Shown here one piece after another: positions 1,533 through 19,000 of a stretch of DNA of 64,000 bases. The position numbers were made by a program, and so were the translations under genes. The stretch covers positions 1,687,501 through 1,751,500 of the forward strand of contig NZ_CP120373.1 of assembly GCF_029892065.1 (NCBI RefSeq), in the 5' to 3' direction. The DNA comes from Sinorhizobium garamanticum (lineage in GTDB: Bacteria; Pseudomonadota; Alphaproteobacteria; Rhizobiales; Rhizobiaceae). Under the pieces are notes generated by a model. It ran no database searches. It had not been told where the DNA came from and saw only the letters and a list, made by a program, of their open reading frames with translations. The first letter of the stretch is position 1. The number at the start of each line of letters is the position of its first letter.

Positions 1533-3540
<2,008 letters not shown>

Positions 3541-6456: not shown

Positions 6457-7368
6457 ATGACGACCATTCTTTCCGGTGCGCCTGGCGCGCCAGCCTATCC
6501 GCATGCCGTCGATCTCGAAGTCCTTGAGCCGCGCTTCGAAGTCCTCATCGACGAGCTTTCGTTGCAACCCTTCTCCGCCGGCGCGCTTTCCAAGGCGCTT
6601 GCCGGCGGTGTCTCTGAAGCCGCCGCGGTGCTTCGTGCCATTCCGATTCAGGAAGGGCGGCTGCTCGAGCGCGGCATTGGGATCATCGCCGACCTTAACC
6701 CGGACCTCGTGGTGCTGACGCAAAATCTGCGGCTGCCGGTCACGAAGACGGCGCTCGAGCTGGTCGAGAAAAACGATCCGAAACACTTTCGGTCCCTGAC
6801 GCTCGATGCGGACAACGGCGGGCGCAAAACGTATACGCCGGACCTGATCATCGTGAACCGAAAGACGAAGCTCGCGCACGTCATCGACGTCAAGCGCAGC
6901 CTCGGCTCTTACGAAGTCTCCCGTATCAACGAGCTGAAGAGCCGTATGCTGGCGGCGGCGCTCGTCGTTCCCGATCTCCTCTACCGCGACCATCATCGGC
7001 TGGTGGCCGAAGAAGTCCGCGTCGTCATCCTCAATGCGGAAAACCAGCGCTCCGACATTGCCGGTGGCGTCTGGCCGCTCAGCGATCTCGATCATCTCAT
7101 CGAGGTCGGCGGGGCGGGGAAGGCGATCGGCATGCTGCGCGATCGCTTCCATGGCCGGATCGACGAGAACTGGAAACTGGCTCGGAATGCCTTTGCCGGG
7201 CCAAAGGAGGAATGGGCTCGTCGCGGTGCCTCGGCGGACATCGCAGACGCGAACGGAAACGAGACGTGCGACCCAGGCGCTGGCTCGATCACCGAATTCC
7301 ATCAGCCGGCCGGTCGTGGCCAAATCCGTGTCGGTTTTGCCCGCATCCCACGGATCGGCACGGGCTGA
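6457..7368 (+). CDS. PD-(D/E)XK nuclease-like protein
   Basis: A predicted 303-residue soluble protein. Residues 128-146 show the hallmark of the restriction-endonuclease-like fold: Pro128-Asp129 (YTPDLIIV), then 14 residues, then Asp144-Val-Lys146 (HVIDVKRS), with Glu71 as a possible earlier metal ligand. In PD-(D/E)XK nucleases these residues bind the metal ion that cuts DNA. The start was set at the ATG with aggag just upstream; a longer frame begins 17 codons earlier. It heads a group with three downstream genes that overlap each other and end in an AAA+ ATPase and a metalloprotease. Family membership is read from the motif alone; the target is unknown. Confidence 0.6.
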   Translation: MTTILSGAPGAPAYPHAVDLEVLEPRFEVLIDELSLQPFSAGALSKALAGGVSEAAAVLRAIPIQEGRLLERGIGIIADLNPDLVVLTQNLRLPVTKTALELVEKNDPKHFRSLTLDADNGGRKTYTPDLIIVNRKTKLAHVIDVKRSLGSYEVSRINELKSRMLAAALVVPDLLYRDHHRLVAEEVRVVILNAENQRSDIAGGVWPLSDLDHLIEVGGAGKAIGMLRDRFHGRIDENWKLARNAFAGPKEEWARRGASADIADANGNETCDPGAGSITEFHQPAGRGQIRVGFARIPRIGTG

Positions 7369-7446
7369 CCGCCCACCGACTTCTTTCCGCTTTCCGTTCC
7401 ATCGTTCACGCCGAACAAGCACGTTCGGCGACAGGAGACGTCTGTC

Positions 7447-7863
7447 ATGAGCCGACACACTGCCAACGTGATCCCTTTCCCCAACAACCCTGCGCACCAG
7501 GCACCTTCGACTCCGAAGCCATCCAGTCGGCCGAAGCGACTGGCGAAGCTGGAAGAGGTGACGAGCCGCGGCGCAGCCCGATCGCTGGCCATTCCTCAGG
7601 CCATGGCCGTTTGCGCGGCAACGTCCGATGCCTTGCCCGATCCGGCGATCGTCGCCCAGGTCGTGATCGGCTTTGCCCGACGCAAGGGCATCGCCATGTC
7701 CAGCATCCCGAAAATCTTCCGCGCGCAACTTCTTGCGCTGTGTGCGGCCGGCGATCCGACGGCGCTGATGTTACGCGACTGGCTCGATGGCAATCGCCAG
7801 CTGCTGGTCATCGATGGGATGCTCACACCTCGTGGGGCCCATGGAACGGGGGAGGGTGCTTGA
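7447..7863 (+). CDS. Small protein of the AAA-protease operon, unknown function
   Basis: A predicted 138-residue protein that I do not recognise. It has a proline- and lysine-rich, probably unstructured N-terminal third (residues 8-35), then a helical, Ala/Leu-rich part without signal peptide or membrane segment. Its stop codon overlaps the start codon of the ATPase gene (TGATG), so the two are translationally coupled and probably made in fixed ratio. It may be an adaptor or regulator for the ATPase-protease pair; that is inference from position only. Confidence 0.6.
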   Translation: MSRHTANVIPFPNNPAHQAPSTPKPSSRPKRLAKLEEVTSRGAARSLAIPQAMAVCAATSDALPDPAIVAQVVIGFARRKGIAMSSIPKIFRAQLLALCAAGDPTALMLRDWLDGNRQLLVIDGMLTPRGAHGTGEGA

Positions 7864-9899
7864 TGGAAACCCTGACTGATCGCATCACGCGCTACCTGCT
7901 TGCCCGCATCCGCCGCCTGGCCATCCTCGATCTTTACGAGCGCGCCGCCGTTGCCGGATTGCTGGAGGCGGACTTCATCGTCGCCGGCGACGAAACGACC
8001 GGGACGGTCTGGCGTGTCCCGGAGCAATCCTTGCGTCTGCTCCATGCCGATCCGGTCAAGGCGCAGGCGGAAATCACGCGACGTCTCGGAAAGGCACCGC
8101 ACAAGACGACGGCGATCGACGTGCTGATCCAGGACCTCCCCGCAGAGCCCGTCCATGGAAAACTTCGTTCTGCCCCGAAGGGCAGGACCGATCGGGAAAA
8201 CCTTGCCGCGGGCCGCCTGAAATCGGGACCGGTCGTTGCCGCTCAGGTTCCGGAGAAGACGCCATCGGCGTCCAGCGAATTCCTGGCGCTGCTTCGGGAG
8301 CACATTGCTCCGCCCAGCGTCGCCCATGTCGCCGTCGCCCTCCTGGTCGCCCGTGCCGTTGGTTCAAGCGTTCCCGGATTATCGGCACTGTCAGCCGTCC
8401 TTCGGAACCCTGGAGCCTTCGTGCTGATCAAAGCGCCGGTTGGCCGTTTCGAACGCCGCTTCGGCCTTATGCTCGAGGACGGCCTGATCGTTCCTTACTG
8501 GACCAAGCTAGAAGACGTCCATCGCAGCAGCCCGCTCTCGGATGGTTACGGAGAGCGCCGTCGTGGAAAGACCCGCAAGACGATCAAGACACTTGCCGGG
8601 ACAGATGTGCCGAAGGCGGTCGAGCGGTCGTTGAGCCGGTTCCTTGTGGATGTACTGCTGGAGCGGTCAGCGCCCGTGGTCCTTGCCGATGAGACAAAAA
8701 CCGCCCTTCCGCCTTTTGTGTCCATGACGCCCGACCTTTTGCTTGAGTGCGGTGGTCTCGATCACGAACTGATGGCGGAACTCCTGCAGATGTGTTGCGA
8801 CATCGCGCCGAAGCAGTCGCTACGGCAGATGGAGAAGATAGCGCTTGATCTTGAGGGCCTCTCGATCGATGCGCTGGCGCTGGCTGTTCGTCCCGGACGC
8901 GGTCTCGAACACATTCTGTCGATCCTCGAAGTCCTCGGCGAACGGGCGCGCTCCTCCGACAAGTCGGACGATGACGACGATGATGGCCGCGGCTCCGGGC
9001 GCAGCAGCGATCGGTCTGGGCGGCCGAAGGTCAAGAGCCGGTTTTTGATCAAGGACGGTGATGACCTACCAAAATCCGTGGATGGGATCGATGTCGTTCA
9101 GCCGGAGAAGCCGGCGGAGACATCTGGGAAGGAGAGCAGCGGCAGCGCATCCGTTGATCCAGCCAATCCGGAACACAGCCGGCTGCGTCAGTTGCGGGTC
9201 GAGACACTCTCGGGCTATGGCGACGCACGCGACTGGGCGCTCGACCTCAAGACAGACCTTCAGCTTTGGCGCGACGGTGGGCTGGCCTGGAGCGAGATGA
9301 GTACGAAACTGATCCTGTCGGGACCGCCCGGCACCGGCAAGACGACCTATGCCCGCGCGCTTTGCAATAGTTTGCAGGTTCCGCTGCTGGTGACGTCGGT
9401 GGCGTCCTGGCTTGAACCCGGTTATCTCGGCGACGTCCTCAAGCGCATGTCCAAGGCCTTCGAAGTGGCACGGGAAAACGCTCCGGTCATCCTGTTCATC
9501 GACGAAGTCGATAACATCGGAAACCGGTCCGCAGGTCGACGGGAGCAGCATGACGACTATTGGCGCTCGCTGATTAACCGTCTTCTCGAGCTTCTCGACG
9601 GGACTTCGAAGACCGAGGGCGTGATCGTCGTGGCGGCAACGAACCTCCCCGAAAAGATCGATCCGGCCCTGTTGCGATCCGGGCGGTTGGAAAAGCATGT
9701 CGCGATCTCCATGCCGGATATGGAGGCGCTTACCGGCATCCTCGCTCATCATCTCGGAGCTGATCTGGCTGGTGTGTTGGCGTCTGCGCCGTCGGGCAGC
9801 CCCAAAACGATCGAAACAGCACGGCAGAACCAGGCCTATGCTGGCAGTGATGCAGACGTCATTGACCAATACAATCGAGGAGTTTCCCAAGATGTCTGA
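7863..9899 (+). CDS. Soluble AAA+ ATPase, FtsH/Cdc48-like module
   Basis: A 678-residue protein with an undescribed N-terminal region of about 400 residues, an acidic/serine-rich linker (run of six Asp near 364-369) and a classical AAA+ module. The module shows Walker A GPPGTGKTT (about 486-494), Walker B VILFIDEVD (about 541), sensor 1 VVAATN and the second region of homology with DPALLRSGR (arginine finger). No transmembrane helix is present, unlike FtsH. The module stops after the second region of homology; the helical lid (TGADIERLV) is encoded at the start of the next gene, which overlaps this one by eight bases. The pair therefore looks like a divided FtsH-type unfoldase/protease. The start uses the ATG that overlaps the upstream stop; the frame is open further upstream. 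Confidence 0.85.
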   Translation: METLTDRITRYLLARIRRLAILDLYERAAVAGLLEADFIVAGDETTGTVWRVPEQSLRLLHADPVKAQAEITRRLGKAPHKTTAIDVLIQDLPAEPVHGKLRSAPKGRTDRENLAAGRLKSGPVVAAQVPEKTPSASSEFLALLREHIAPPSVAHVAVALLVARAVGSSVPGLSALSAVLRNPGAFVLIKAPVGRFERRFGLMLEDGLIVPYWTKLEDVHRSSPLSDGYGERRRGKTRKTIKTLAGTDVPKAVERSLSRFLVDVLLERSAPVVLADETKTALPPFVSMTPDLLLECGGLDHELMAELLQMCCDIAPKQSLRQMEKIALDLEGLSIDALALAVRPGRGLEHILSILEVLGERARSSDKSDDDDDDGRGSGRSSDRSGRPKVKSRFLIKDGDDLPKSVDGIDVVQPEKPAETSGKESSGSASVDPANPEHSRLRQLRVETLSGYGDARDWALDLKTDLQLWRDGGLAWSEMSTKLILSGPPGTGKTTYARALCNSLQVPLLVTSVASWLEPGYLGDVLKRMSKAFEVARENAPVILFIDEVDNIGNRSAGRREQHDDYWRSLINRLLELLDGTSKTEGVIVVAATNLPEKIDPALLRSGRLEKHVAISMPDMEALTGILAHHLGADLAGVLASAPSGSPKTIETARQNQAYAGSDADVIDQYNRGVSQDV

Positions 9900-10641
9900 A
9901 GCCACCCTCACATCCACACCTGAGCATCACCCCGATCTTCGGCAACTGGCGTTGCTGGCGACCGGCAGTACCGGAGCCGACATCGAACGACTTGTTCGTG
10001 ACGTTCGCCGGAAAACCAGAAGGCAGCAGCGGTCGCCGACCTGGAGCGATCTCGAGCATGCCTTGCTTGCCGACCAGATGAAACTCTCGGACGATGTGCG
10101 CTGGCGCACCGCCATCCACGAGGTCGGTCATACGATCGCCTTCCATGACATGGGGATCGCCGAGGTCATCACCGTAAGCATCGGGATCGGAGGAATGGGA
10201 CAGGTTGTCAGCCGGCAGCATAACCATTTGCGGCAGACGCAGGACTGGCTGATGAGAACCATCGCATGCATGCTGGCCGGGCGGACGGCAGAGCTGTTGA
10301 TGTTTGGCGAGGCGGTGGCCGGGGCAGGTGGATACGATGACAGCGATCTGGCCAAGGCAACCGCATATGCGGTTGCCGCCGAAACCCGACTTGGCTTCTC
10401 CGATCATCAGCCGCTGCTCTATCGATCTGCGGCGGGAAGCATCAACGAACTCAGTCTCGACCGGCATCTGGCTGACCGGGTCAACAGTCGCCTGATGGAA
10501 GCCGAAGCGATGGCTCGCACTCTACTGGAGAACCGACGGGACGTGCTGGTCGCCATCGCCATGCGGTTGAAGGATGTCGGGGTCATGACGGGCGAGGAGA
10601 TCACGCGCCTGCTCATCGCGTCTCCCGGTCCACGGACCTGA
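9892..10641 (+). CDS. FtsH-type (M41-like) zinc metalloprotease with AAA lid
   Basis: A predicted 249-residue protein. Residues 15-58 resemble the C-terminal lid of an FtsH AAA module (GSTGADIERLV ... WSDLEHAL). The rest is an M41 peptidase domain with His76-Glu77-x-x-His80 (IHEVGH) and the distal zinc ligand Asp152 in DLAKAT, plus the FtsH-like stretch IACMLAGRTAELLMFGE (125-141). It has no ATPase or membrane part of its own. Its ATG lies within the last codons of the ATPase gene, with gaggag upstream, so it is translationally coupled. Presumably it assembles with that ATPase into a soluble energy-dependent protease; substrate unknown. Confidence 0.83.
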   Translation: MSEATLTSTPEHHPDLRQLALLATGSTGADIERLVRDVRRKTRRQQRSPTWSDLEHALLADQMKLSDDVRWRTAIHEVGHTIAFHDMGIAEVITVSIGIGGMGQVVSRQHNHLRQTQDWLMRTIACMLAGRTAELLMFGEAVAGAGGYDDSDLAKATAYAVAAETRLGFSDHQPLLYRSAAGSINELSLDRHLADRVNSRLMEAEAMARTLLENRRDVLVAIAMRLKDVGVMTGEEITRLLIASPGPRT

Positions 10642-11636: not shown

Positions 11637-12144
11637 TGGCTTGATACCGTTCTGTTCCCTCGCTCTTCGTCTGGTGCTCCTGGGTACCATTCCGCAAACG
11701 GCGTTCCATCCGATCCCTACGCCTTCCCCCCATTACTCCTGATCACGACGTTTGCGTGGGAATCGGAAAACTCAGCATCCGAGGGAGTTCTGTGCCCGAT
11801 GGCCACCATTCCGGTGAGTTGTGACTTCGGTCGATCTGATGCCACCACGGATTGAGGAGGCTACGCGCGCATTCCAATCTCATTCGGCGAAGGGTGCTAT
11901 TTCGGCAGATTAAGTCGCCCGTGGCAAAACCATCGAGGCTGGAATTGGGCCGCTCCGGAGTTGAGGTTTAGACAGCCGGTGTTCTAACAGCCGAGCATTT
12001 GAAACCTACAGACGAAACGGCTTATAGACTAGGCTCAGGGAGCGAATCGGCAAGTTTCAAAGTCGGCGGGTTGTGGCGATTTTCATAAAGAGGGGATCGA
12101 GCGCGGAACCAGCTGGCAAAAGCGGAAGCAAGAAGGAATAGAGC
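11637..12144. other. Intergenic region upstream of hsdM
   Basis: About 500 bp that mark the switch from GC-rich island DNA to the AT-richer restriction cassette. It should hold the hsdM promoter; I cannot pick a confident -35/-10 pair. No gene is seen. Confidence 0.4.
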
Positions 12145-13686
12145 ATGACAAGCGCTGAACAACGCGCCGAGCTACAACGCCGAATCTGGCAGATCGCCAA
12201 TGATGTGCGAGGCGCGGTTGATGGCTGGGACTTCAAGCAATACGTGCTTGGCACCCTGTTCTACCGCTTTATCAGCGAAAATTTTGCGAGCTACATCGAA
12301 GCCGATGACGACAGCATCAATTATGCGGAATTGCCCGATGGCGTTATTACGCCAGAAATCAAAGATGATGCGATCAAAACCAAAGGGTATTTCATCTATC
12401 CTGGCCAGCTATTTGCCAATGTCGCAAAGAAAGCCAACACCAACGAGAGCCTGAATACCGACCTGGCAAAAATCTTCGGGGACATCGAAGCATCAGCCAA
12501 CGGCTATCCATCTGAAGCTGACATCAAGGGTCTGTTTGCCGACTTTGATACAACCAGCAACCGCCTTGGCAACACGGTGAAAGATAAGAATGCCCGTTTG
12601 GCCGCTGTAATCAAAGGCGTGGCAGAGCTGAATTTCGGCGATTTTAACGGCAGCCAGATCGACCTTTTCGGTGATGCCTACGAATTCCTTATCTCCAATT
12701 ACGCCGCCACTGCTGGGAAGTCCGGCGGGGAGTTTTTTACACCGCAACATGTGTCGAAGTTGATTGCGAAGCTTGCCATGCACAAGCAAACCAGCGTCAA
12801 CAAGATTTATGATCCGGCGTGTGGTTCAGGGTCCCTGCTGTTGCAGGCCAAAAAGCACTTTGACGCACATATCGTGGAGGAGGGTTTTTTCGGTCAGGAG
12901 ATCAACCATACGACCTATAACCTCGCCCGCATGAACATGTTTTTGCATAACATCAACTACGACAAGTTCAATATCGGGTTGGGCAATACGCTGATCGAAC
13001 CGCATTTTGGTGATGACAAGCCGTTTGATGCCATCGTTTCCAACCCGCCTTATTCGGTGAAATGGGTAGGCTCCGATGACCCGACACTGATCAACGACGA
13101 TCGCTATGCCCCTGCGGGTGTACTTGCACCAAAATCCAAAGCGGATTTCGCTTTCGTACTGCACACGCTTAGCTACCTCTCCAGCAAGGGTCGCGCTGCC
13201 ATTGTTTGCTTTCCAGGTATTTTCTACCGTAGCGGTGCTGAACAGAAAATTCGGCAATATCTGGTGGATAACAACTTCGTGGAAACCGTGATTTCATTGG
13301 CTCCCAACCTATTTTTTGGCACCACCATTGCCGTGAATATTCTGGTCCTTTCCAAACACAAGACCGATACCAACACGCAATTTATCGACGCGAGCGGCCT
13401 ATTTAAAAGAGGGGCCAACAACAATTTTCTGACCGATAAACATATCGAAGAAATCATGCAGGTCTTCGATAGCAAGGCGAATTTTGAGCATTTTGCCAAA
13501 TCCATTCCCATTGAGGCCATCGCTGCGAACGATTACAACCTTTCGGTCAGCTCCTATGTAGAATCCAAAAACAACCGAGAAGTGGTGGATATCGCCGAGC
13601 TGAATACCGAATTGAAAACGACGGTTACTAGAATTGACCAGTTGCGGGCGGAGATTGAGGCCATCGTTGCGGAGATTGAAGCATGA
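12145..13686 (+). CDS. hsdM: Type I restriction-modification methyltransferase subunit
   Basis: A 513-residue N6-adenine DNA methyltransferase subunit (HsdM). It shows the AdoMet-binding motif [11 protein letters not shown] (near residue 223) and the catalytic motif IV NPPYS (near 302), with the N-terminal HsdM helical domain before them. The length and order fit the type IC (EcoR124I/EcoprrI) group. The ATG is preceded by aaggaatagagc. It overlaps hsdS by four bases (ATGA). Base composition is clearly more AT-rich than the rest of the window, pointing to acquisition of hsdM-hsdS-prrC-hsdR as one cassette. Confidence 0.96.
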
Positions 13687-14876
13687 GCAAGCTGGGTTAT
13701 TTGGAAAAGCTTCTGGATGGAGCTGGGGTGGAGTGGAAGCCTTTAGAGAAGGTAGGGACGTTTCAAAGAGGCAAGAGGTTTGTAAGAAGCGATATGGGTT
13801 CGGTCGGAATCCCGTGCATTCATTACGGCGACATTTACACCCGTTACGGCGTTTGGATAAAAGAAGCTAAAGCATTTCTAAATGAAAACTTAGCCTCGAA
13901 GTTGAGAGCCGCAAATCCCGGCGATGTTGTCATTGTTGCTGCGGGTGAGACCATAGAAGATATTGGTAACGGCACGGCGTGGCTGGGTACCGATGACGTA
14001 GTAATTCACGATGCCTGTTTCTCGTTTAAAAGCCAACTGAACCCGAAATATGTCTCATATTTCTTGAGAACGGAAATATTTAAGGAACAAATTAAAAGTA
14101 AAATCTCTAGTGGAAAGATATCCTCAATAAACGCGAGAGGCTTGGGTCAAGCTAATATCCCCATCCCATGCCCAAAAAGCCCGGAAAAATCGCTGGCGAT
14201 TCAGGCGGAGATTGTGCGCATTTTAGACGCATTTACCGAGCTTACCGCAGAGCTTACAGCAGAGCTTACCGCCCGCAAAAAACAATATAACCATTATCGT
14301 GACCAACTACTCACGTTTGATGACCGTGAAGTGGAATGGAGGGTTTTGGGGGATTTATGTAGCATTAGTGTAGGGCAATCGCCGGAGATTGATGAAATAG
14401 GCGAGTATCCGTTCGTCAATGCAGGAACAACGCCATCAGGTTATCTTTCTGCCTACAATACGGACGCAGACACAATTACAACTCCTTCCCGGGGACAGGG
14501 CGGAATTGGATATGTGGGCTATCAAAAAACGCGATTTTGGTGTGGTCCGCTATGCTACAGAATTCGCAGTGCAAGTAAAAATTTTAGTACACGGTTTTTA
14601 TACTATGTCATGGCCAGTCGCATGGAGGACATAGTAGGGCTAGCGAATATGGCAGGAGTTCCCGCGCTGAACAAAAAAGATTTGGTCGGATTTCCAGTGC
14701 CTCTACCATCCATTGAAGAACAGGCCCGCATCGTCGCCATCCTCGATAAATTCGATGCCCTTACCAACTCGTCTCAGGAAGGCTTGCCGCGTGAAATTGC
14801 GCTGCGCCATAAGCAATATAAATATTACCGCGACTTGCTGCTGAGCTTCCGCAAGTCTGAAGGGATGGTTGCGTAA
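13683..14876 (+). CDS. hsdS: Type I restriction-modification specificity subunit
   Basis: A 397-residue DNA-sequence recognition subunit with two target-recognition domains (about 15-165 and 215-345). These are separated and followed by the conserved helical spacers ([12 protein letters not shown] ... [12 protein letters not shown] and [13 protein letters not shown] ... [12 protein letters not shown]). The central spacer carries tandem Thr-Ala-Glu-Leu repeats, which in the EcoR124I family set the distance between the two half-sites of the recognition sequence. The gene starts within the last codon of hsdM, and prrC begins one base after its stop. The target sequence cannot be read from the protein. 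Confidence 0.95.
14241..14276 (+). repeat. 12-bp repeats coding the HsdS TAEL spacer
   Basis: Three near-identical 12-base units (cttaccgcagag, cttacagcagag, cttaccgcccgc) encode [12 protein letters not shown] in the central spacer of HsdS. In EcoR124I and its derivative the number of such units is two or three, and it changes the recognition spacer by one base. The units could expand or contract by recombination or slippage. Confidence 0.85.
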
Positions 14877-14877
14877 G

Positions 14878-16044
14878 ATGAGCAAGACGCTGAAGGAGGT
14901 CGCTGAAGAGCTCAAGCGCACCAACAAAACGGTGCAGTTAATCTATGCCTTTAATGGAACGGGCAAGACCCGTCTCTCGCGGGAATTCAAAAACCTTGTT
15001 GCGCCCAAAAATGGCGATGCTGGCGGTGATGAAGCGGAAGCAAAATTGTCGCGCACTAAAATCCTCTATTATAACGCTTTCACGGAAGACCTGTTTTATT
15101 GGGATAACGACTTGACGCTGGATGCCGAGCCTAAGCTAAAAATTCAGCCCAATACCTTTACCGACTGGATTTTGAGAGATCAGGGGCAAGACCAATACGT
15201 CATCAGCAATTTTCAGCGCTACGCCGATAACAGGCTGACCCCGCATTTTAGTGAGGATTTCAGTGAAGTCACATTTTCTATTGAGCGCGGGACGGATGAG
15301 CGTTCAGGGAATTTAAAAATCTCAAAGGGTGAAGAAAGCAATTTCATCTGGAGCATTTTTTACACGCTTCTGGACCAGGTGATTACCATTCTCAATGTCT
15401 CCGAGGTGAGTGAGCGCGAGACAGATCAGTTTAACCGGCTGGAATATGTATTTATTGATGACCCTGTCAGCTCGCTGGATGAGAACCATCTGATCGAGCT
15501 GGCGGTCAATTTGGCGCGTCTGATTAAGTCTAACCAATCGGGCTTGAAGTTTATCATCACCACGCACAACCCGCTTTTCTATAACGTGCTTTTCAATGAG
15601 CTGGCGAGCGATGAAAAAACATTAAACTACAAGTCGAAATTCTTCGGTAAGTATAGGCTAGATAAAATAGAGGACGGCACGTTTCATCTGGAGGAACAGA
15701 GTAACGATTCCCCATTTTCATATCATCTGTTCTTGATGAATGAGCTGCTCAGCGCCACGAGCAGCGGTCAAATCAGAAAATATCATTTCAATTTCTTGAG
15801 AAATATACTGGAGAAAACCTCCACATTCCTCGGTTATAAAAAATGGGGCGATCTTTTGCCAAAAACCAATGACGGAACGTCAGCCCCCTACATGTCTAGG
15901 ATAATAAATATCTCCAGCCACTCAAAGCATGCGGGAGAAGAGGTCGCTGACCTTACCGAAGATGACAAGCGTGTCTTAGGCTATTTGGTCAATGAATTGA
16001 TTAGGGATTATCGTTTCCAGCGACCGGAGGGGCAAAATGGTTGA
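14878..16044 (+). CDS. prrC: Anticodon nuclease PrrC (tRNA-Lys cleaving)
   Basis: A 388-residue toxin-like RNase of the PrrC family, lying between hsdS and hsdR exactly as in the E. coli prr locus. The N-terminal two thirds form an ABC-type ATPase: Walker A FNGTGKT (25-31), KGEESNFIW (150-158) at the signature position, Walker [13 protein letters not shown] (190-201) and the H-loop ITTH (His230). The C-terminal third has the nuclease triad pattern Arg308-xxx-Glu312 (LRNILEKT) and His348 (SSHSKH), matching R320/E324/H356 of E. coli PrrC. Known PrrC is held silent by its restriction complex and cuts tRNA-Lys at the anticodon when a phage inhibitor blocks that complex. The start is the ATG one base past the hsdS stop; the end overlaps hsdR by eight bases. 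Confidence 0.93.
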
Positions 16045-19000
16045 ACAGACCATACCTATCGCGGAATCAAACCGCTTCATCGTTTTGGATAGATATGCCA
16101 AGGAATGGGGGGCGTACGATGGTTACCAGAGCGAAGGTGATCTGGAACGTGAGCTTGTTCAGGACCTAGTTAATCAGGGCTATGAATTCGTGGCCAAGCT
16201 CAACACCGCTGAAGCCATGCTGGCCAATGTTCGTCTGCAGCTGCAAACCTTGAACGACGTGCAATTTGCTGACAGCGAATGGCTGCGGTTTGTGGAGAGC
16301 TACCTGGACAGGCCCAGCGATAGCATCGTTGATAAAACGCGTAAAATTCACGATGATTATATTCATGACTTCGTTTTTGATGATGGCCATATCCAGAATA
16401 TCTTTCTGCTTGATAAAAAGAACATTGCCCGCAACAAAGTGCAAGTGATCAAGCAATTTGAACAAACCGGCACGCACGCCAATCGCTACGACGTTACCAT
16501 CTTGGTCAACGGCTTGCCGCTGGTGCAGATTGAGCTGAAAAAGCGCGGCGTCTCCATTCGCGAAGCCTTCAATCAGATACACCGTTACAGCAAAGAGAGC
16601 TTTAACAGCAACAGTTCTCTTTTTAGATATGTGCAGCTATTTGTCATTTCCAATGGTACGGATAGCCGTTACTTCGCTAACACCACGCAGCGCAACAAAA
16701 ACAGCTTTGACTTCACCATGAACTGGGCAAAGTCTGATAACGGTCTGATTAGAGACTTAAAAGACTTTACGGCGACGTTTTTCCAAAAAAACACTTTGCT
16801 GAACGTGCTGCTACATTATTCGGTTTTCGATGTGAGCGACACTTTGTTGGTGATGAGGCCTTACCAGATTGCCGCCACCGAGCGAATTCTATGGAAAATT
16901 AAGAGTTCATTTGAAGCCAAAAACTGGAGCAAACCGGAAAGCGGGGGATATATCTGGCACACTACCGGTTCTGGCAAAACACTAACCAGCTTTAAGGCGG
17001 CGCGTCTGGCGACTGAACTTGATTTCATCGACAAGGTGTTTTTTGTCGTGGACAGAAAAGACCTCGATTATCAGACAATGAAGGAATACCAGCGCTTCTC
17101 GCCGGACAGTGTTAATGGCTCCGACAGCACTGCCGGACTCAAGCGTAATCTGGAAAAAGACGACAATAAGATCATCGTCACCACGATCCAGAAGCTCAAT
17201 AACCTGATGAAGAGCGAAGGCGATCTGCCCATTTACCACAAGCAGGTGGTCTTCATTTTTGATGAATGCCACCGCAGCCAATTTGGTGAAGCGCAGAAGA
17301 ATTTGAAGAGGAAGTTTAAGCGCTTCTATCAGTTTGGTTTTACCGGCACGCCGATCTTCCCTCAGAACGCTTCGGGCGCAGAAACCACTGCAAGTGTGTT
17401 TGGCCGCGAGCTACATTCCTATGTCATCACAGATGCCATTCGTGATGAAAAGGTGCTGAAATTCAAGGTGGACTACAACGATGTTCGCCCCCAGTTCAAA
17501 GCCATCGAAACCGAGCAAGATGAGAAAAAGCTCAATGCAGCGGAAAACAAAAGAGCCCTGTTGCACCCGGAGCGAATCCGCGAAATTTCTCAATATATTC
17601 TGAATAACTTTCGCCAGAAGACTCACCGCCTGCAAGGGGGAAACAAAGGCTTTAATGCCATGTTCGCCGTGAGCGGCGTGGAAGCCGCGAAGCAGTATTA
17701 TGAGACCCTGAACAAGCTTCAGGCGAATAGCGGGAAGCCGCTTAGAATCGCGACTATATTTTCCTATGCTGCCAATGAAGAGCAGGACGCTGTTGGTGAC
17801 ATTCAGGATGAAAGTTTTGATGTATCGGCCATGAATAGCAGCGCCAAGGAGTTTTTAAGCGCCGCTATCGCTGACTATAATACGTTTTTTAGGACCAACT
17901 TCAGCGTGGATGGTAACGGTTTCCAAAACTACTACCGCGATCTGGCGCAGCGCGTTAAATCCAAAGAAGTCGATTTGCTGATTGTGGTCGGCATGTTTCT
18001 GACCGGCTTCGATGCTCCTACACTCAATACGCTGTTCGTGGATAAAAACCTGCGCTATCACGGCTTGATTCAAGCCTATTCGCGTACCAATCGCATTTTC
18101 GATGCGACTAAAACCTTTGGTAATATTGTCACGTTCCGTGATTTGGAGGAGGCAACTGTCAACGCCATTACCCTGTTTGGTGATACGAACACCAAAAACG
18201 TGGTGCTCGAAAAAAGCTATCAGGAATATATGGAGGGCTTCACTGATGTCGTGACCGGTGAGGCACGGCGCGGTTTTGTAGATGTGGTAACCGAGCTGGA
18301 GCTGCGCTTCCCCAATCCTGATGAAATCATTAAAGAAAGCGACAAAAAGGCCTTTGCCAAACTCTTTGGCGAATATTTGCGCGTGGAAAACGTGCTGCAA
18401 AACTACGATGAATTTGCAAGCTTGAAAGCCCTGCAGAGCGTAGACACGAGTAACCCGGAGGCAGTTGAAGCTTTCAAAGCCGAGCACCATTTGAGCGATG
18501 ATGATATCGCTGTGCTAAAGGCGATTAGAGTGCCGGCAGAGCGCAAAATTCAAGACTATCGATCAATTTACAACGACATCCGAGATTGGTTACGTAGAGA
18601 GAAAGCAGCCAACGAGGCAGACAAGTCCACCGTTGATTGGGATGATGTTGTGTTTGAGGTGGACCTGCTAAAGTCCCAAGAGATCAATCTCGACTACATT
18701 CTGGAGCAGATTTTTGAAAACAATAAAAAGGTGAAAGACAAAGCCGCACTTGTTGACGATGTGCGACGCATGATCAGAGCCAGCCTCGGCAATCGCGCAA
18801 AAGAAAGCCTGTTGGTCGATTTTATCAATCAAACTGATCTGGATAAGATCGGCGACAAGGCCAGCGTGATTGATGCCTTTTTCACTTTCGCCCAAGCCGA
18901 GCAACAGCGTGAGGCTGAAGACTTGATTAGCGCTGAAGGCCTGAATGTCGAAGCTGCAAAGCGCTACATAACGAATTCGATCAAGCGTGAATTCGCCAGT

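Follow-up and report, generated by a model that had tools for sequence, protein, structure and literature searches.

The question raised by this locus is whether the open reading frame (ORF) between hsdS and hsdR of a type I restriction operon in Sinorhizobium garamanticum encodes a true anticodon nuclease PrrC, and whether its differences from the Escherichia coli enzyme (EcoPrrC) point to another target. The window, that is the whole stretch of 64,000 nucleotides analysed here (contig NZ_CP120373.1, positions 1,687,501 to 1,751,500), carries the gene in the order hsdM-hsdS-prrC-hsdR. The sequence evidence supports a genuine and intact PrrC in a type IC operon rather than a chance match. As a gene it is ordinary, a further member of an already known family. 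The added value lies in a two-class structure of this family, with the E. coli enzyme in a derived-looking clade, and in the exchange of prrC between restriction backbones. To the whole explanation, a genuine PrrC which is guarded by HsdMSR, cuts tRNA-Lys upon a phage trigger, was acquired and is exchangeable, we assign a probability of roughly 0.8.

The identity as PrrC is based on the family model, the alignment with E. coli PrrC, the gene order and a predicted Rad50-like head. The frame starts with ATG and runs over 388 codons free of internal stops; an in-frame TTG at 14869, if used as start, would add three residues. The PADLOC PrrC model covers residues 3-385 with 487 bits, and the runner-up family reaches 56 bits; lesser PADLOC matches are PDC-S06, LmuB and AriA. 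Pfam returns AAA_13 only and NCBIfam gives no match at E<=0.001, so annotation from these two libraries misses the name PrrC. An earlier note on this DNA had read the gene as a complete PrrC with the motifs FNGTGKT, KGEESNFIW and R308/E312/H348, and all of them are found at the residues it gave. Its word rhizobium fits the host loosely, the best named DNA match of a 24-kb piece being Sinorhizobium (84% identity over 53% of the piece). With 388 amino acids (aa) the protein is inside the PrrC size range of 341-416 aa and, like other PrrCs, has no zinc-hook insert (PMC2610378). The predicted model has a Rad50-like head, by a fold search that covered residues 1-286. The C-terminal domain, barely reached by this search, is probably a HEPN-type RNase, as judged from the literature (PMC3710099) and the helix pattern.

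As E. coli reference we used a 396-aa plasmid PrrC annotated as anticodon nuclease (CP057689, locus L032), whose identity with the original EcoPrrC was judged by residue positions: D287, R320, E324 and H356 are at the published positions (PMC2610378, PMC3014915). The window protein is 60% identical to it over 372 aligned residues and has the gene order, nucleoside triphosphatase (NTPase) motifs, catalytic triad, D287 equivalent and size in common with the EcoPrrC/EcoprrI system. The alignment places R308, E312 and H348 in the columns of R320, E324 and H356, and thus the proposed triad is the PrrC triad. Two lengths differ. Opposite the E. coli recognition segment (residues 284-294), D277 aligns with D287, and the loop NDSPFSYH is two residues shorter than the E. 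coli loop GDSNKSFSYH. The interval between the catalytic Glu and His (E-H interval) is 36 in the window protein and 32 in EcoPrrC.

To place these differences, relatives were collected widely. At least 336 are present in genome contigs, from which the best 80 by similarity to the window were taken. Viral contigs gave 68 loci, with 34 weak partial matches (L153-L186) left out, and PrrC matches occur in 113 of 72,556 plasmid records, 7 of which entered the alignment. In the class of the host, 8 of 385 genomes have a strong match (E<=3.2e-127; own genome counted) and 23 more a weak one; four of the seven other strong matches were used (L003, L004, L007 and L009). Two additional loci from the family and order of the host (L199 and L200) are not part of the set. 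The alignment has 114 rows, namely the window, 80 genome, 22 viral, 7 plasmid and 4 further genome rows. The triad is invariant in all of them, and the D287 column holds D in 111. The operon order hsdM-hsdS-prrC-hsdR is found in 73 of the best 80 genome loci; the remaining seven, cut by a contig end, read hsdS-prrC-hsdR or prrC-hsdR.

Addition of 13 distant PrrC-type proteins gives 127 rows, in which the recognition segment occurs in a long form (GDSNKSFSYH-like, 50 rows) and a short form (77 rows). The E-H interval follows the loop: a value of 32 is found in 41 of the 50 long-loop rows and in no short-loop row, a value of 36 in 59 of the 77 short-loop rows and in no long-loop row, and the rest of the rows have 33, 34, 35, 37, 39 or 40. 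The short-loop class is spread over many phyla. In a PrrC tree of 93 rows, calculated with the loop and interval columns removed, 36 of the 37 long-loop rows form one clade within the short-loop rows (bootstrap 100, Shimodaira-Hasegawa-like approximate likelihood-ratio test 99). This clade holds the E. coli protein, and the window PrrC falls outside it. One protein from a viral contig (L139) breaks the class rule: it combines the long-loop motif with an A where D287 aligns and is placed among short-loop rows, possibly as a recombinant or through parallel change.

The distant PrrC-type proteins, about a third identical, served as outgroup. They are short-loop. Ten of 12 viral rows show the gene order hsdR-hsdS-prrC-hsdM, and in the other two the upstream part is hidden; HsdR of this operon type was called with the window's HsdR as query. 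Three more plasmid loci (L187-L189) are of the distant operon type, and in L187 and L189 (Klebsiella plasmids) the genes are hsdR, a TrlF-like ATPase, an RNA-binding-domain protein, hsdS, prrC and hsdM. Since the outgroup is short-loop and the long-loop rows form one clade, the E. coli long-loop state looks derived and the E. coli enzyme looks like an offshoot, a reading which hangs on the distant-type root, where one outgroup row (L151) is a very long branch. On that rooting, the four additional residues in the E-H interval of the window protein belong to the state in common with the outgroup. It was stated before (PMC3014915) that only some PrrCs conserve the recognition segment and that substrate variation is possible; to this the present comparison adds the two linked length changes and their likely direction. 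In the literature covered, the knowledge of tRNA recognition by PrrC comes from the E. coli protein, a member of the clade that looks derived.

The second result concerns the relation of PrrC to its operon. We compared HsdR and PrrC in 87 operons, filtered on HsdR (under 97% identity) and not on PrrC, with an 86-row HsdR tree that was flagged for two long branches meeting (L113 and L138). On this tree the loop class changes 27 times, 19 of these changes being forced by well-supported branches; shuffled classes give a mean of 28.0 changes, and 204 of 500 shuffles are as low. On the PrrC tree the class changes only twice. Unexpectedly, the PrrC class shows no correlation with the HsdR beside it. 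Of 25 slices of 60 columns taken from HsdM and HsdR, none co-segregated with the class (lowest p 0.203). This slice test left out operon pairs with PrrCs at least 75% identical, which lowers agreement, so the count on the HsdR tree is the main evidence.

Close pairs of operons point in the same direction. Some operons with HsdR 94-96% identical carry PrrCs of only 53-58% identity, as in L085/L056 (HsdR 96.2%, HsdM 95.0%, PrrC 57.4%) and L038/L037 (HsdR 94.0%, HsdM 98.6%, PrrC 57.0%). The latter two occupy the same Klebsiella IncFIB plasmid site, with flanks of 98.6-98.9% DNA identity, hsdS at 51% and prrC at 50% (DNA identities here and below count gap columns); the first ~360 bp of hsdR are divergent too. 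At the same site a third Klebsiella plasmid (L207) has no prrC annotated and 116 bp between hsdS and hsdR. Thus one site with nearly identical flanks exists in three states, with a short-loop prrC, a long-loop prrC or none. Compared with the window, prrC-less type IC systems of the EcoR124 family, such as those in Psychrobacter (L208) and Klebsiella (L207), likewise have HsdM and HsdS, their HsdR is ~79% identical, and hsdS is followed by hsdR without prrC between them. Of the plasmid records, 1010 contain an HsdR relative at >=60% identity and 113 a PrrC match, and the slot is therefore mostly empty on plasmids. prrC can differ without hsdS: in L127/L053 the DNA identity is 80% for hsdM, 78% for hsdS, 80% for hsdR and 38% for prrC (protein 56%). 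The reverse is also observed, for among 59 operons compared for HsdS, 13 of the 14 listed pairs (20 in total) with PrrC at least 77% identical have HsdS at 30-45%.

These sequence comparisons suggest that prrC in type IC operons behaves as an exchangeable slot, traded between restriction backbones. Several observations weigh against fully free exchange. PrrC and HsdR are still correlated in their pairwise identities (Spearman 0.36; 0.72 for HsdM and HsdR). By chance about half of the pairs would be discordant in class. The discordant pairs make up 128 of 253 at 85-90% HsdR identity and 2 of 3 above 95%, but 24 of 68 at 90-95%, and this lower share indicates that some co-inheritance remains. 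Moreover, L038/L102 agree in HsdR (93.8%) and PrrC (95.7%), and L109/L090 are identical throughout. Free exchange of prrC would require a general silencing interface and would predict that complexes of the EcoR124 family keep both classes of PrrC silent. Restriction-inhibition sensing and guard-toxin release would then be testable with natural operon pairs. More tentatively, and with more doubt than confidence, one may go a step further: hsdS and prrC would be exchanged independently of each other while the hsdM and hsdR arms stay constant, any EcoR124-family complex would guard either loop class, and the anticodon loop may be read in another way by the short-loop class, so that swapping would change the tRNA or wobble modification under attack as well as the phage tRNA or repair trick that fails. 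Among the titles and abstract starts listed, with subscription papers mostly outside the coverage, no publication on such prrC exchange was found.

How would the window PrrC work? EcoPrrC is silenced by the Hsd complex and released by Stp together with guanosine triphosphate and deoxythymidine triphosphate on unmodified DNA, and it cleaves 5' of the wobble base (PMC3014915). By analogy, the window protein, a Rad50-like ATP-binding cassette (ABC) NTPase head fused to a C-terminal HEPN-type RNase domain, is encoded in one operon with HsdMSR and presumably held silent by the type IC complex. The trigger would be inhibition of the restriction complex by a phage protein at a time when the complex sits on unmodified DNA. 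The head would then bind and hydrolyse nucleotide and thereby release the nuclease, and R308, E312 and H348 would cut the anticodon loop of tRNA-Lys(UUU). Translation would stop and the infected cell would yield no phage, a second-line abortive-infection role carried over from E. coli knowledge.

For the target, tRNA-Lys is reached by bracketing, because EcoPrrC (PMC2610378, PMC3014915) and PrrC170 of Klebsiella quasipneumoniae both target tRNA-Lys. PrrC170, like the window PrrC encoded in a type I operon, acts against phages, and its target was obtained by tRNA sequencing; its operon, listed and cloned as HsdR, HsdS, PrrC and HsdM, encodes a PrrC 35% identical to EcoPrrC (PMC11555353). The proteins of PrrC170-type operons in our set share ~33% identity with the window PrrC and 32-33% with the E. 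coli protein; their loops are short and their E-H intervals are 33-36, and PrrC170 is probably short-loop too, by its operon gene set and identity. In the literature covered it is the only PrrC with a published target that is possibly of the short-loop kind. Similar activities of the Haemophilus influenzae and Streptococcus mutans PrrCs are mentioned as unpublished (PMC2610378), and the PrrC of Streptococcus azizii (L113) is short-loop.

The best surviving rival is a PrrC with unchanged architecture in which the short loop recognises a different tRNA, the CUU isoacceptor or a wobble base carrying another modification. We consider it unlikely. The shorter loop and longer E-H interval speak for it, as does the variation of the recognition sequence, with which substrates may vary (PMC3014915). 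D277, on the other hand, is kept at the wobble-contacting position, and the outgroup, of which PrrC170 is a likely member, is short-loop as well. The host tRNA-Lys(UUU), found among the tRNA genes by similarity together with a tRNA-Lys(CUU), carries an anticodon core, TGACTTTTAATCA, identical to that of the E. coli substrate. The interval had indeed been described as four residues longer than in E. coli, and this length holds; its use as a sign of a different target is not supported in that form, since 36 is the commonest short-loop state, the outgroup is short-loop and the E. coli clade with 32 looks derived. The tRNA-Lys target of PrrC170, probably of the short-loop outgroup type, also argues against a changed target.

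Even less probable is an idle passenger of an acquired operon, intact in appearance yet silent, weakly expressed or lacking a trigger in this bacterium. A PrrC match is found in none of the 32 other genomes of the host genus, the operon is low in guanine and cytosine (GC), and a rhizobial Stp is not seen among the phage names listed, all of which would fit it. Against it, the catalytic and NTPase motifs are intact, all four genes are open and the triad is kept throughout the alignment. That the gene codes for some other toxin of the ABC-HEPN kind (RloC-like or a further AAA_13 defence protein) and lies in the operon by chance can be practically dismissed: the bare Pfam name and the weaker PADLOC matches fit this, but 388 aa is too short for the zinc-hook insert of RloC, a protein of 658-897 aa (PMC2610378), the PrrC model leads by 487 to 56 bits and the gene order is that of the prr locus. 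RloC does resemble the window PrrC in its ABC head and C-terminal nuclease with R-x3-E-...-H; it differs in the zinc-hook coiled-coil insert, is rarely linked to restriction loci and excises the wobble nucleotide (PMC2610378).

Returning to the phage-triggered tRNA-Lys nuclease guarded by HsdMSR, the following points weigh against it. Cleavage, silencing and phage response of the window PrrC are predicted from known systems, and the class of PrrC170 is drawn from gene set and identity. The loop contacting the wobble base is two residues shorter than in EcoPrrC, and target or modification preference could differ. The search for Stp-like peptides in phages of the host, proposed in the earlier note, matched 772 phage records (E up to 1), none shown to be rhizobial; each listed name is either that of an enterobacterial host or a bare phage name. 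The lack of a match in the other genus genomes may mean a recent, unselected arrival.

The surrounding hsd operon is apparently a complete type IC system of the EcoR124 family. The order of the prr locus and the type IC assignment, proposed earlier, are confirmed by coordinates and library matches, with HsdM and HsdR recognised in Pfam, NCBIfam and PADLOC and HsdS in Pfam and PADLOC. HsdM matches TIGR00497, HsdR carries EcoR124_C and HsdS has central TAEL repeats, which are linked to EcoR124. The genes are tightly joined, with overlaps of 4 bp between hsdM and hsdS and of 8 bp between prrC and hsdR, and a gap of 1 bp between hsdS and prrC. Within the first 30 kb, GC is lowest over the operon, the other 1-kb steps between 1 and 29 kb having 0.55-0.64, and the operon is located downstream of a tRNA-Met gene with an adjoining recombinase-like ORF. 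From the low GC, the missing prrC in all 32 other genus genomes and this neighbour, the operon is likely an acquired island of foreign origin. All features are collected in Table 1.

Table 1. Features of the hsd-prrC operon in the window, with residue numbers of the window PrrC where applicable.
Feature	Position	Strand	Evidence
hsdM, type I DNA methyltransferase subunit, 513 aa	12145..13686	+	TIGR00497 E=6.3e-196; Pfam HsdM_N + N6_Mtase
hsdS, specificity subunit, 397 aa, central repeat	13683..14876	+	Pfam Methylase_S; PADLOC Specificity_I E=2.5e-115
prrC, anticodon nuclease, 388 aa	14878..16044	+	PADLOC PrrC PDLC02360 E=8.7e-147; alignment to E. coli PrrC
Walker A FNGTGKT, residues 25-31	14950..14970	+	N26, G29, K30, T31 invariant in alignments
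Degenerate ABC signature KGEESNFIW, residues 150-158	15325..15351	+	read in sequence and alignment
Walker B / D-loop, residues 192-201	15451..15480	+	I193, D194, D195, P196, S199, L200, D201 invariant in alignment
Linchpin His H230	15565..15567	+	invariant in alignment; motif name from PMC2610378
tRNA-recognition loop, short form NDSPFSYH, residues 276-283	15703..15726	+	D277 aligns with E. coli D287
Catalytic R308 (= E. coli R320)	15799..15801	+	R in 114/114 rows
Catalytic E312 (= E. coli E324)	15811..15813	+	E in 114/114 rows
Catalytic H348 (= E. coli H356)	15919..15921	+	H in 114/114 rows
hsdR, type IC restriction subunit, 1033 aa	16037..19138	+	TIGR00348 E=5.7e-207; EcoR124_C, HSDR_N, SWI2_SNF2
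Low-GC segment spanning operon	12001..19000		GC 0.45-0.50 per 1-kb step

The tRNA-Met gene lies at 1630-1706, and a 21-bp duplicate of its 5' part is found at 1533-1553. A 625-aa minus-strand ORF (1663-3540) overlaps the gene and resembles a large serine recombinase by eye. This region (1533-3540) likely marks an end of the island; a 14-mer search for a far tRNA-Met copy returned only the 21-bp local duplicate and one 14-bp match. Among relatives, the TAEL units of HsdS vary, with three in L032 and L038 and two in L037, and the repeat number is possibly a spacer-length switch of DNA specificity. In a Salinivibrio locus (L035:6743-6943) a gene for a small winged-helix regulator is inserted between prrC and hsdR. 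On the E. coli plasmid of L032, which also carries phage genes, a gene annotated as 3'-phosphatase (10070-10576) adjoins the prr locus. Finally, upstream of the operon in the window, an AAA ATPase ORF (7212-9899) overlaps a Peptidase_M41 ORF (9697-10641), an FtsH-like pair in two frames.
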